This document shows positions 24,521-29,932 of a DNA stretch of 64,000 nucleotides, piece after piece; position 1 is the first letter of the stretch, and the number at the start of each line of letters is the position of its first letter. Location of the stretch: assembly GCF_034932065.1 (NCBI RefSeq), contig NZ_JAYGHP010000006.1, positions 124,001-188,000 on the forward strand, read 5' to 3'. The position numbers were made by a program, and so were the translations under genes. The notes under the pieces were generated by a model. It made no database searches. It was given only the letters and a program-made list of their open reading frames with translations, and had not been told where the DNA came from. This DNA is from Crocosphaera sp. UHCC 0190 (GTDB lineage Bacteria > Cyanobacteriota > Cyanobacteriia > Cyanobacteriales > Microcystaceae).

Positions 24521-25861
24521 TCAAGGTTTTTGCCAAACAGTAATACTTTTTCGCAATGCAGTGCGTCCAAATTTACCCATTTGTTGACTACTATTTCCTT
24601 TTCTTTGGGGCAAAATATAGATAGTAACGGGAGAAAAACCGATCTTTTCCGCTATTTCTGTAAAAAATGTATCAATCGGAATGATTTCACCACTATATTT
24701 TACCAGATCATTGACTAGAATAACATAGGCTCCTTGCTGACAAGTTCTATACATTTCTAAAATTACAAAAGTTAATTCAATTAAATAATTTTTAACCATT
24801 AAAAGAATACCTTTATTGTTAACTTCTCCTCGTTTCCATCTTGTTTCTAGAGCATTATTAATTTCTTCAAATACTTGATTAGTATTTAAGATTTTTTGAC
24901 AGAATAAAAATCTATTGTGTTGTTCTAAAGAACTATATAGATTTTCTAAACTTTCTAATTTTGAGCGATTTTCAACAGTACAGGATAATTGACTTTGACG
25001 GAGTTGACGAATTTCTATTTCATCAATTCCCAAGTAAGCTAATTCTAAAGCATAGGTTCTTGTATAATCATAACGATTACAATAAGGGGGTGAAGTAATC
25101 ACTCCAGAAAATTTTTCAGCTTCAATTTTAGGCAATAATTCTAAAACACTACCTTGCCGAAAATCTTGATAGCTTTTGTCATAGATAAAACTTCTGGTTT
25201 TGAGTGAATTTATATCATCAATAGTTATTTTTAAAACTTTCATGAAAGCTTCTTTGACGGTTGGCAAATCTCCTTTGTCAAAAAGCTTAATAGGCTTTTT
25301 TTCTTGCTGTAATCTTGTTTGATTTCTTTGCTTTATTTTATCAGATCTATAATCCCACCTTAAATATTGACCATCCTTTCTTGTATAGCTGATTTCTTCA
25401 AGAATACTCATTAACAACATCTTCAGTAAAATTCTTGTTTCTTGAGAAATATCAAGTATTGTAATTTGATGTGTATAAAACATTAAATCATTTTCTGTCT
25501 CTTGAGAAAAAGCAGATTGAGTAATTTTGAGATGAGGAAAATTCAGATCAACCTTTTGAGGTGTTTGAGTTTCAATTAGTTTTAAAATATTGTTTAATTC
25601 TTCTAAATTATATTTATTAATATTTGATTTTGCTTGCCAAATTAAATGACAAATAGGTAAAATTTCAAACCCAATGGCATTAATTCCTAAAGACTGAGCA
25701 ACTAATAAGGTTGTTCCTGAACCGCCAAAAGGTTCTAATAATGTATCATTAGATTGAATGCCAAATTTATTAATAAGATTTTTAACTAATTCTTCTGAAA
25801 ATCCTTCTTTATATCTAAACCATCCATGAATATTTTTTCCTTTATTTCCTTGATAACTCAC
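24521..25861 (-). CDS. DNA methyltransferase of a restriction-modification system (start unresolved)
   Basis: SAM-dependent DNA amino-methyltransferase. The SAM-binding motif FGGSGTT is at residues 45-51 and the catalytic SPPY is near residue 256, in the order motif I then IV. It should protect the site cut by the upstream endonuclease. The annotated start is a GTG with no ribosome-binding site, and it cuts into apparent coding sequence: the same frame stays open for 76 more codons, to 26089, without ATG, GTG or TTG. This points to an N-terminus fused by frameshift to the endonuclease gene. The base modified (N4-cytosine or N6-adenine) is not predictable. Confidence 0.85.
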   Translation of the reverse strand: MSYQGNKGKNIHGWFRYKEGFSEELVKNLINKFGIQSNDTLLEPFGGSGTTLLVAQSLGINAIGFEILPICHLIWQAKSNINKYNLEELNNILKLIETQTPQKVDLNFPHLKITQSAFSQETENDLMFYTHQITILDISQETRILLKMLLMSILEEISYTRKDGQYLRWDYRSDKIKQRNQTRLQQEKKPIKLFDKGDLPTVKEAFMKVLKITIDDINSLKTRSFIYDKSYQDFRQGSVLELLPKIEAEKFSGVITSPPYCNRYDYTRTYALELAYLGIDEIEIRQLRQSQLSCTVENRSKLESLENLYSSLEQHNRFLFCQKILNTNQVFEEINNALETRWKRGEVNNKGILLMVKNYLIELTFVILEMYRTCQQGAYVILVNDLVKYSGEIIPIDTFFTEIAEKIGFSPVTIYILPQRKGNSSQQMGKFGRTALRKSITVWQKP

Positions 25862-26067
25862 TATTTTACGATTATATTCATTAGTTTCTTTAAAAAGATA
25901 TGAATATTTATTTTCTAATAATAATCTTGCTTGATCAGAATAAATTTGATGATCAGAAAAATTAGAGATAATTACAGAAGATTTTGAGGGAGTATTATTA
26001 TTAAAAGGTAAGCTAAGCTGTAAAGGGACTATGGGTTGATTAGTTGTGACTGAACAATTAACTTTAA

Positions 26068-26089
26068 CTACTTTTTTTTTAGATCTATT
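26068..26089 (-). other. Candidate -1 frameshift site joining endonuclease and methyltransferase frames
   Basis: On the minus strand the endonuclease gene ends CTA-AAA-AAA-AAG-TAG, with nine A in a row. It contains the heptamer A-AAA-AAG in the zero frame (26071-26077), the efficient bacterial -1 slip sequence known from dnaX, directly before the UAG (26068-26070). A -1 slip continues without a stop to 24521. The product would have about 853 residues. Whether slipping occurs is inference. Confidence 0.5.
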
Positions 26090-27081
26090 TTAATGAATTT
26101 TAAAATATCGACTGCAAACTGCTGTCTAAACTCATCCTTAGAAACAATCTGAGTTAAATCATAAATATTGGTAACTAATTCATCACTTTTAAGTCTTTTA
26201 TTAACTTCTTGTGTAATACAATTTGCCAAAAATATTGTTATAACTTCTGGATTTAAACGTCTTGCTTCTTCAAAACTTTTTTTAGCTGCACCATATCTTT
26301 CTAATGCTCCAGCAGTGTCTTTGCCTCCTTTAACTTCTATGACGGCAACTAATTCTCCGTTAGCATTAAGAAAAGAAATATCCGGTTCACTAGAAAATAA
26401 AATACTTGTCTGATTTTTTAATCGAATACCTGATATTAAAGCAGTTTGCTCTATCAAATTATTTAATTGAGTATTTGAGTTCCCCTCTTTATAAATTGTC
26501 GAAACAATTAAATCCTGTTCTAATAAGGTACGAATAATTAATTTTCGAGTTAAAATCTCTGCTTCCTCTCCAATTTTATTATTCCAAGAACCTTGAATTT
26601 GTGCGCCAGCAGAAGCATACATCAGTGCATAAATGTCATCTTGTGTATATTCATTAGCACTTTCTATTATCAAGCTAGAATGGGAGTTATAAAGTTGGCA
26701 AAGAATCACTGATTTATCGGCTGATAATTTTTTACCTTCTTCTATACTTTTAATTGTAAATGCTAATTTATTCACCGCTTTTTGAGGAAGCATAGCAACG
26801 CTTCGATAATAAGCTGATAATTTAGATTGTTCTTGCAAAACTCTCGGATGTGCAAAAACCGCCATCTGAGGAATTTTACTTTTTTCTAAAATCATCCATG
26901 CTGTCTCAGAAACTCCCCAATTATTTTTTTGTTCCCAGTTATAAGTGTCAGCAATTTCTATGAGTTTAAATATTTCATCATGAAAATATTTGAACCCTAA
27001 ATCATATAACTTTCTATAAAAAAAAGTCGCTCTTAATCTATAATCTATTTGTAGAGATTCATGAAGAAAGTCTTGACTCAT
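26068..27081 (-). CDS. Type II-like restriction endonuclease, PD-(D/E)XK fold
   Basis: Probable DNA-cutting partner of the adjacent methyltransferase. A PD-(D/E)XK nuclease core is visible: Glu232-Pro-Asp234, twelve or so residues, then Glu249-Val-Lys251 (EPDISFLNANGELVAVIEVKGG), with an upstream helix holding GEEAE (171-175). The N-terminal half is helical and charged. It has some likeness to XcyI-type enzymes, which cut CCCGGG, but I am not sure of that subgroup. The protein has 337 residues and ends in KKK directly before UAG at the slip sequence. Linked methyltransferases are needed to protect the host. Confidence 0.75.
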   Translation of the reverse strand: MSQDFLHESLQIDYRLRATFFYRKLYDLGFKYFHDEIFKLIEIADTYNWEQKNNWGVSETAWMILEKSKIPQMAVFAHPRVLQEQSKLSAYYRSVAMLPQKAVNKLAFTIKSIEEGKKLSADKSVILCQLYNSHSSLIIESANEYTQDDIYALMYASAGAQIQGSWNNKIGEEAEILTRKLIIRTLLEQDLIVSTIYKEGNSNTQLNNLIEQTALISGIRLKNQTSILFSSEPDISFLNANGELVAVIEVKGGKDTAGALERYGAAKKSFEEARRLNPEVITIFLANCITQEVNKRLKSDELVTNIYDLTQIVSKDEFRQQFAVDILKFIKIDLKKK

Positions 27082-27125: not shown

Positions 27126-27152
27126 AATAGGGTGAGTGTGACTCACCCTATT
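27126..27152. repeat. Perfect 12-bp hairpin downstream of oligopeptidase A
   Basis: Arms AATAGGGTGAGT (27126-27137) and ACTCACCCTATT (27141-27152) with a 3-nt loop. It lies just past the stop of the leftward oligopeptidase gene. No U-run follows on the minus strand. It may act as a terminator or mRNA 3' end. Confidence 0.65.
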
Positions 27153-29359: not shown

Positions 29360-29932
29360 CTAAAAAGTTTCCCATAAATAAGGATAATTTTCTGGAGTAT
29401 CTGAGAGATGAGCTTTAACAGGATTCAATTGAATATATTTCCAAGTATTCAAAAATTCTCTTCTGTTCCTGATTATGCGATCATATCGTTCATCTTGCCA
29501 AATTGTCCCAATATGTTTCATTACTTTAGGAATTTGTTTAGAACTATAGCTTTTAACACTATGTAAAATACTACTTAATGACCAACATTCTAGCTTATTT
29601 TGTGAAATCAGTACCCGTGGAACAGGCATCTTGCCTGTCTCAGATGTCTCAGATAAAATTGTTTTATCTATTTTGGGTAAAGGTTGAAGCAACCAATGAA
29701 CATGATCAGGCATAATAACAATAATAAAAGTCTGATACCTAGCATCTTTACAGTTGATACTTTGATCAAAAAACAAACAGCAATTTAGAACAATTTGTCT
29801 AGCATCAGTGCTTAATTTAAGTTTTTGCCAAGTCTTAAATGTCACAAAATATACTGAACCAGCTAATTCCCAATGGGGAAGATATCTTTGCTTAATGATT
29901 AATTGAGATGAATTTTGTAAAGGATTAGACAT
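29360..29932 (-). CDS. REP-associated tyrosine transposase (RAYT, TnpA-REP)
   Basis: Single-copy relative of IS200/IS605 transposases thought to mobilise REP palindromes. It has GSVYFVTFKTW near residues 25-35, the HUH metal motif at His77 and His79 (MPDHVHWLLQP), and tyrosine candidates in KSYSSKQIPK (Tyr129) and IWQDERYDRIIR (Tyr150). The C-terminus shows the family NPVKAHL stretch. Residues 100-106 (GKMPVPR) are encoded by a REP palindrome inside the reading frame. REP copies also flank the gene on both sides. It looks intact (190 residues), so it may be active. Confidence 0.9.
   Translation of the reverse strand: MSNPLQNSSQLIIKQRYLPHWELAGSVYFVTFKTWQKLKLSTDARQIVLNCCLFFDQSINCKDARYQTFIIVIMPDHVHWLLQPLPKIDKTILSETSETGKMPVPRVLISQNKLECWSLSSILHSVKSYSSKQIPKVMKHIGTIWQDERYDRIIRNRREFLNTWKYIQLNPVKAHLSDTPENYPYLWETF
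29622..29638. repeat. REP palindrome inside the RAYT reading frame
   Basis: ACAGGCA-TCT-TGCCTGT lies within the transposase gene and is read in frame, giving the residues around GKMPVPR. On the plus strand it is preceded by CCGTGG, matching the flank of the left REP copy read on the other strand. Confidence 0.8.

Follow-up and report, generated by a model that had tools for sequence, protein, structure and literature searches.

A run of adenines and a missing methyltransferase start in a cyanobacterial XcyI-type restriction-modification operon: a candidate slippage site joining endonuclease to methyltransferase

The DNA analysed here (the window, a 64,000-nucleotide stretch of a contig of Crocosphaera sp. 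UHCC 0190) carries on its minus strand a gene for an XcyI-family restriction endonuclease that runs directly into a DNA methyltransferase frame, the two being out of register and meeting at a run of nine A. The features concerned, as read from the sequence and from profile matches, are listed below in window coordinates.

26068 to 27081, minus strand: XcyI-family restriction endonuclease, 337 aa, the product of unslipped decoding
26329 to 26388, minus strand: intact catalytic motif of the endonuclease (EPD...EVK), of PD-(D/E)xK-like type
26072 to 26080, minus strand: run of nine A (A9), a putative slippage site for RNA polymerase and/or the ribosome
26071 to 26077, minus strand: heptamer A-AAA-AAG in the endonuclease frame, with UAG (26068-26070) immediately 3'
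24521 to 26089, minus strand: DNA methyltransferase frame, -1 to the endonuclease, open for 522 codons and entered after the A-run
26003 to 26020, minus strand: QLSLPF motif, 3-4 codons before which ordinary relatives of the same gene order start their methyltransferase
25859 to 25861, minus strand: first GTG of the methyltransferase frame
25709 to 25735, minus strand: methyltransferase motif I, EPFGGSGTT
25082 to 25093, minus strand: methyltransferase motif IV, SPPY

The endonuclease matches Pfam RE_XcyI (E=1.9e-16) and PADLOC REase_II, its score of 60.7 bits against the XcyI family profile (PF09571) lying well above the curated cutoff of 25. XcyI itself recognizes and cleaves C/CCGGG. By fold comparison, the best PDB match to a low-confidence predicted model is BsoBI (E=1.7e-5), and this match, together with the AvaI/BsoBI-type relatives described below, suggests a CYCGRG- or CCCGGG-like target site. 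The methyltransferase frame of the window matches Pfam N6_N4_Mtase (E=2.5e-11) and PADLOC MTase_II (E=3.7e-164), the latter profile spanning residues 42-522. All of these motifs, the endonuclease catalytic motif and methyltransferase motifs I and IV, recur in the relatives that were aligned, and the strain's own genome was found to hold no second methyltransferase gene closely similar to this one. Since both sets of catalytic motifs are intact and no close second methyltransferase is present, a strain making the free endonuclease alone should cut its own DNA; the templated product alone would be a cutter without this protector, and from this we infer that the methyltransferase frame is reached during expression. 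Elsewhere among cyanobacteria, XcyI-type endonuclease genes broken by stops or frameshifts were seen at five loci (L055, L061, L062, L063, and L078), in most of which a methyltransferase gene is still present nearby, as if the cutter were often lost.

Read on the minus strand from 27081 to 26068, the endonuclease gene ends in GAT CTA AAA AAA AAG TAG. An earlier note on this DNA had described the heptamer and stop at this point, a methyltransferase frame open in -1 from 26089 to 24521, and 76 codons free of ATG, GTG, and TTG before the first GTG, itself devoid of a ribosome-binding site, and the sequence bears out each of these: the GTG at 25861 lies 70 codons past the run, and the preceding TAATCGTAAAATA has no Shine-Dalgarno-like sequence. 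Entry into the methyltransferase frame after the run would give a predicted fusion of 853 residues (337+516). In the genome the pattern AAAAAAAAA occurs at 111 positions over 4.43 Mb with both strands counted, or about once per 80 kb of strand; a run of this kind would be expected by chance in a given junction of about 20 nt, on the correct strand, some 2-3 times in 10,000, and its position between endonuclease and methyltransferase is therefore unlikely to be accidental.

Relatives were sought in several hundred cyanobacterial genomes and by a scan of genome contigs. An endonuclease running into a methyltransferase was found at four loci in different genera, namely the window, a genome designated G002, Snowella sp. 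ULC335bin1, and Nostoc sp. FACHB-152, whose methyltransferases are 80% (G002), 58% (Snowella), and 60% (Nostoc) identical to that of the window. In every case the junction coincides exactly with an A-run, which is A9 for the window and for G002 but A10 for the other two loci, so that the run and the missing start, whose conservation the earlier note had wished to see examined, are retained in three relatives. The endonuclease tree (support 97/99) and the methyltransferase tree (100/99) each group these loci as a single clade, and the conservation is that of four loci of single origin. The G002 locus is syntenic with the window, the shared neighbours being the same M3 peptidase gene on the upstream side and, on the downstream side, HEAT-repeat and CpeS genes. 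The methyltransferases of G002 and Snowella lie in -1, and at both loci the endonuclease stop, as AAG TAG, comes right after the run. In Nostoc FACHB-152 a single uninterrupted frame of 856 codons leads from the endonuclease ATG through the methyltransferase, and one A fewer would produce AAG TGA; relative to Snowella this locus carries an additional T immediately ahead of the run, both runs being A10, and its templated fusion is equal in length to the slipped product predicted for Snowella (357+499 = 856).

Where gene order could be read in the remaining XcyI-type relatives, the methyltransferase comes first, and none of these has a run of nine or more A between the genes. Two further A9 runs were considered and rejected, one (L073) belonging to a methyltransferase-first locus, in which it falls at the 3' terminus of an endonuclease gene with no methyltransferase after it, the other (L054) downstream of the matched genes. 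No relatives were found in viral contigs. Phage records held one distant endonuclease relative and no methyltransferase relative, and plasmid records held one XcyI gene (Nostoc C057), next to which no methyltransferase is annotated, as well as four relatives of the methyltransferase, each less than 60% identical.

Systems of the AvaI/BsoBI family on Firmicute plasmids have the same gene order and provide a view of the start that has probably been lost. The Ligilactobacillus plasmid pLAC3, of L. acidipiscis, and a similar pair on pAFL-J5-2 of E. faecalis encode methyltransferases 45% and 48% identical, respectively, and share with the window a Q(I/L)SL sequence at the methyltransferase N-terminus, but there the methyltransferase has its own ATG (ATG-ATT-AAT-GAA-CAA-ATA-AGT, MINEQIS, in pLAC3) or TTG (TTG-ATT-GAG-CAG-CTT-TCG, MIEQLS, in pAFL-J5-2), and the longest A-run in that stretch is 6-7. 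The Snowella stretch aligned to these starts reads AAA-GTA-GAA-CAA-CTC-AAT (KVEQLN), and in the alignment with the Enterococcus methyltransferase the last AAA of the run occupies the position of the start codon; the run of Nostoc FACHB-152 is likewise at the position of the expected start. Relatives that possess a proper start and have no A-run, which, if close, the earlier note would have counted as evidence against its proposal, are encountered only at 45-48% identity or less, and all relatives at 58-80% identity keep the run.

The GTG at 25861 is rejected as the methyltransferase start. Among the three A-run relatives it is kept only in G002, the matching codon of Snowella being GTC and that of Nostoc GTA, and the first ATG, GTG, or TTG past the run falls at codon 70 in the window, at codon 44 in G002 (TTG), and at codon 96 in Snowella (TTG, at motif I). 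Most homologous methyltransferases begin 23-48 residues upstream of it, and it lies some 53 codons later than the start used by the Firmicute plasmid relatives; homologues beginning at the GTG-matching residue would have overturned the earlier note, and homologous methyltransferases begin well before it. In the model of the Nostoc fusion the first methyltransferase helix, predicted at residues 389-401, also precedes the residue that corresponds to the GTG.

The sequence from the run to the GTG bears the marks of translation in the methyltransferase frame. Substitutions there fall 10/8/18 on the three codon positions between the window and G002 and 19/9/28 between Snowella and Nostoc FACHB-152, and length differences are of whole codons only, which together argue that it is read in that frame; coding constraint is visible on both sides of the run. 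As is expected of genes with programmed transcriptional slippage, a conserved run of at least nine A (A9, A9, A10, and A10) sits beside a shifted frame that is under such constraint. By contrast, the pure AAA coding of the run lysines is weak evidence for selection, since 19 of the 29 lysine columns conserved in all four loci are all-AAA anyway.

The linker from the endonuclease core to the QLSLP motif is 65 nt in the window, 65 in Snowella, 66 in Nostoc FACHB-152, and 50 in G002 (coordinates 26020-26085 in the window, 4041-4137 in L034, and 4977-5075 in L033). An ungapped alignment of the linkers of the two sub-lineages gives 20 identities in 65, a chance value when compared with a shuffle mean of 19.6, and what the two have in common is the A-run together with its GT(A/G). 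In the window and G002 the run is close to the endonuclease end, with 17 and 12 residues, respectively, between it and the QLSL motif, but in Snowella and Nostoc FACHB-152 it adjoins the methyltransferase start. The difference could have come about by relocation of the run, by independent origin, or through indels that compensate each other. In the predicted model of the Nostoc fusion (mean pLDDT 66) the linker, residues 338-383, is disordered, with pLDDT under 50. The sequence Q(L/I)(S/N)L is common to the window, G002, Snowella, and Nostoc FACHB-152 and is also present at the methyltransferase N-termini of E. faecalis and L. acidipiscis. We take it to resemble the sliding-clamp binding peptide QL[SD]LF, and such a clamp-like motif could tie methylation to replication.

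The reading that we consider probable is that of a Type II operon, endonuclease first, in which the methyltransferase would have lost its start codon and ribosome-binding site and come to have a run of 9-10 A in their place. Templated decoding would end just past the run and yield free endonuclease, whereas slippage of RNA polymerase on the run (a net gain of one A by the mRNA, or a loss of two) would allow translation to continue into the methyltransferase and so produce a fusion of about 853 residues, to which ribosomal -1 slippage at A-AAA-AAG may contribute as well. The fusion and the accompanying unfused endonuclease were both proposed in the earlier note and are upheld here as the best reading of a locus that has kept the run and is missing the methyltransferase start. 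The analysis establishes the anatomy, its conservation within one clade, the lack of a start, and the coding constraint; we infer that slippage occurs, to what level, that it is mainly transcriptional, and that it has functional consequence: the slip rate would set the ratio of cutter to protector without a regulator, and all protector would come attached to a cutter. For Nostoc FACHB-152 the scheme would be inverted, the fusion being templated and slippage giving rise to the short endonuclease. On balance it also seems likely that the methyltransferase, having no start of its own, is made in the other three only as a slip-made extension of the endonuclease under the control of polymerase or ribosome slippage, and that selection has maintained the run even in the fused Nostoc gene and at opposite ends of the linker. 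The scheme is counter-intuitive with respect to entry into a new host, in which free cutter would be made with no free protector.

The principal alternative, in which programmed -1 ribosomal frameshifting of the dnaX type at A-AAA-AAG acts alone and RNA polymerase does not slip, is possible but rather unlikely. The heptamer stands in the endonuclease frame and is followed by a stop in the window, G002, and Snowella, and, given stimulators, it ranks with the most efficient of such motifs in E. coli (PMC4066793); the heptamer described in the earlier note is indeed present. However, an A-run followed by G, with the methyltransferase in -1, always contains A-AAA-AAG, so that the motif arises automatically and cannot discriminate between slippage of the ribosome and of the polymerase. 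The runs are moreover of 9-10 A though six A and a G suffice, and Nostoc FACHB-152 has kept its A10 even though the frames are already joined. The stimulators that the earlier note had suggested looking for were not found either: reading upstream of the run at the right distance revealed none of the Shine-Dalgarno-like elements GAGG, GGAG, AGGA, GGNGG, or AGGKG listed in PMC4066793, and folding of downstream stretches for stem-loops gave nothing better than shuffles (z 0.00 to -0.94). The dnaX-type mechanism is consequently the less supported part of the earlier note, and runs of at least nine A with no stimulator found favour RNA polymerase slippage over a ribosomal shift. In bacteria a run of nine A supports efficient transcriptional slippage, as in T. 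thermophilus dnaX (PMC5009743), and such slippage has been inferred on A8-A10 for IS elements of Nostoc PCC 7120 (PMC1088944).

Phase variation, by which replication slippage in the run would toggle between endonuclease alone and a permanent fusion, appears improbable. Long A-runs do mutate, uninterrupted alleles were taken by Baranov et al. as a hint of such variation (PMC1088944), and the open fusion of Nostoc FACHB-152, with its A10, is in one of four genomes the product that DNA-level slippage would yield; the permanent fusion that the earlier note expected from an indel in the homopolymer does therefore occur in nature, in this case with an extra T beside the run relative to Snowella. An A9-to-A10 change at an ancestral site with the extra T would give the same result. 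Nevertheless, Nostoc and Snowella both have A10 and differ by that T, and three of the four genomes (A-run genomes being represented by one per species) would be in the state of cutter without protector, which is expected to be harmful given the intact catalytic motifs. Separate translation of the methyltransferase, from the GTG at 25861 or from a non-canonical start such as the ATA 13 codons past the run in the window or the ATT at 7 codons in Snowella, is very unlikely: the loci share no start position and no ribosome-binding site, and a start at the GTG, itself GTC or GTA in the more distant relatives, would remove conserved sequence and the predicted helix. Least likely of all is that the shift reflects a sequencing error in DNA that is truly in frame, or a decaying pseudogene with a dead methyltransferase. 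Homopolymer runs are error-prone and degraded XcyI relatives exist in other cyanobacteria, but the same out-of-frame arrangement recurs in three separate assemblies, including the 80%-identical syntenic copy in G002, and changes are concentrated at third codon positions with the motifs intact.

Slippage between endonuclease and methyltransferase, the reading preferred here, can be compared with several characterized systems. Runs of 9-11 A in T. thermophilus dnaX and bacterial tssM likewise place at least nine A at a frame junction and give two products per gene, some homologues templating the long form and others making it by slippage, as would hold for Nostoc versus Snowella; in tssM slippage yields the longer product in Citrobacter but the shorter one in Yersinia (PMC4256274). 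These are not restriction systems, however, and slippage has been shown there experimentally whereas here it is proposed. The IS elements of Nostoc PCC 7120, from the same phylum, and of Deinococcus also use an A8-A10 run to join two frames, in their case the orfA and orfB of a transposase rather than a toxin and its protector. Type IIC/IIG enzymes such as MmeI and Eco57I resemble the fusion in having an N-terminal endonuclease and a C-terminal methyltransferase in one chain, but for the most part their methylases are of the gamma-class NPPY kind and their cleavage is at a distance, whereas the present system combines an XcyI-type endonuclease, an SPPY methylase (Pfam N6_N4_Mtase), and a putatively slip-made fusion alongside free endonuclease. 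As the motif is SPPY and a single polypeptide is templated only in Nostoc FACHB-152, the other three requiring slippage, the system is not classed as Type IIC/IIG. In engineered RM.Eco29kI, a laboratory gene fusion without frameshifting, an orthodox endonuclease and methyltransferase joined head-to-tail retain both activities (about 80% of the methyltransferase and a third of the endonuclease activity; PMC3039593), which makes a natural fusion plausible. Cyanobacterial XcyI-type systems with the methyltransferase first (endonuclease about 45% and methyltransferase about 40% identical) have no A9 between the genes, and their order precludes run-on from endonuclease into methyltransferase. No restriction-modification system with programmed slippage between the two genes was found in full-text searches of papers available without subscription.

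The balance between cutter and protector is a central regulatory problem of Type II systems, and the solutions to it include controller (C) proteins. If the proposal is correct, a slippage tract that replaces the methyltransferase start would be a new and minimal solution, and would represent a natural route from two-gene systems to single-chain (Type IIC-like) enzymes caught part-way, the stages being separate starts in Firmicute plasmids, slip-joined genes in three cyanobacteria, and an open fusion in one Nostoc. In annotation pipelines a methyltransferase of this kind would probably come out as a pseudogene or as a shortened protein starting at the GTG.

Two further elements were observed in the neighbourhood. 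In the gap that separates the endonuclease from the M3 peptidase gene lies a hairpin with a 12-bp stem (AATAGGGTGAGTCACACTCACCCTATT, 27126-27152, minus strand), to which a repeat in G002 is similar and which is likely the terminator of the M3 peptidase gene. At 29360-29932 on the minus strand is an open reading frame of 190 aa that contains MPDHVHWLL and presumably resembles a REP-associated (Y1-type) transposase.
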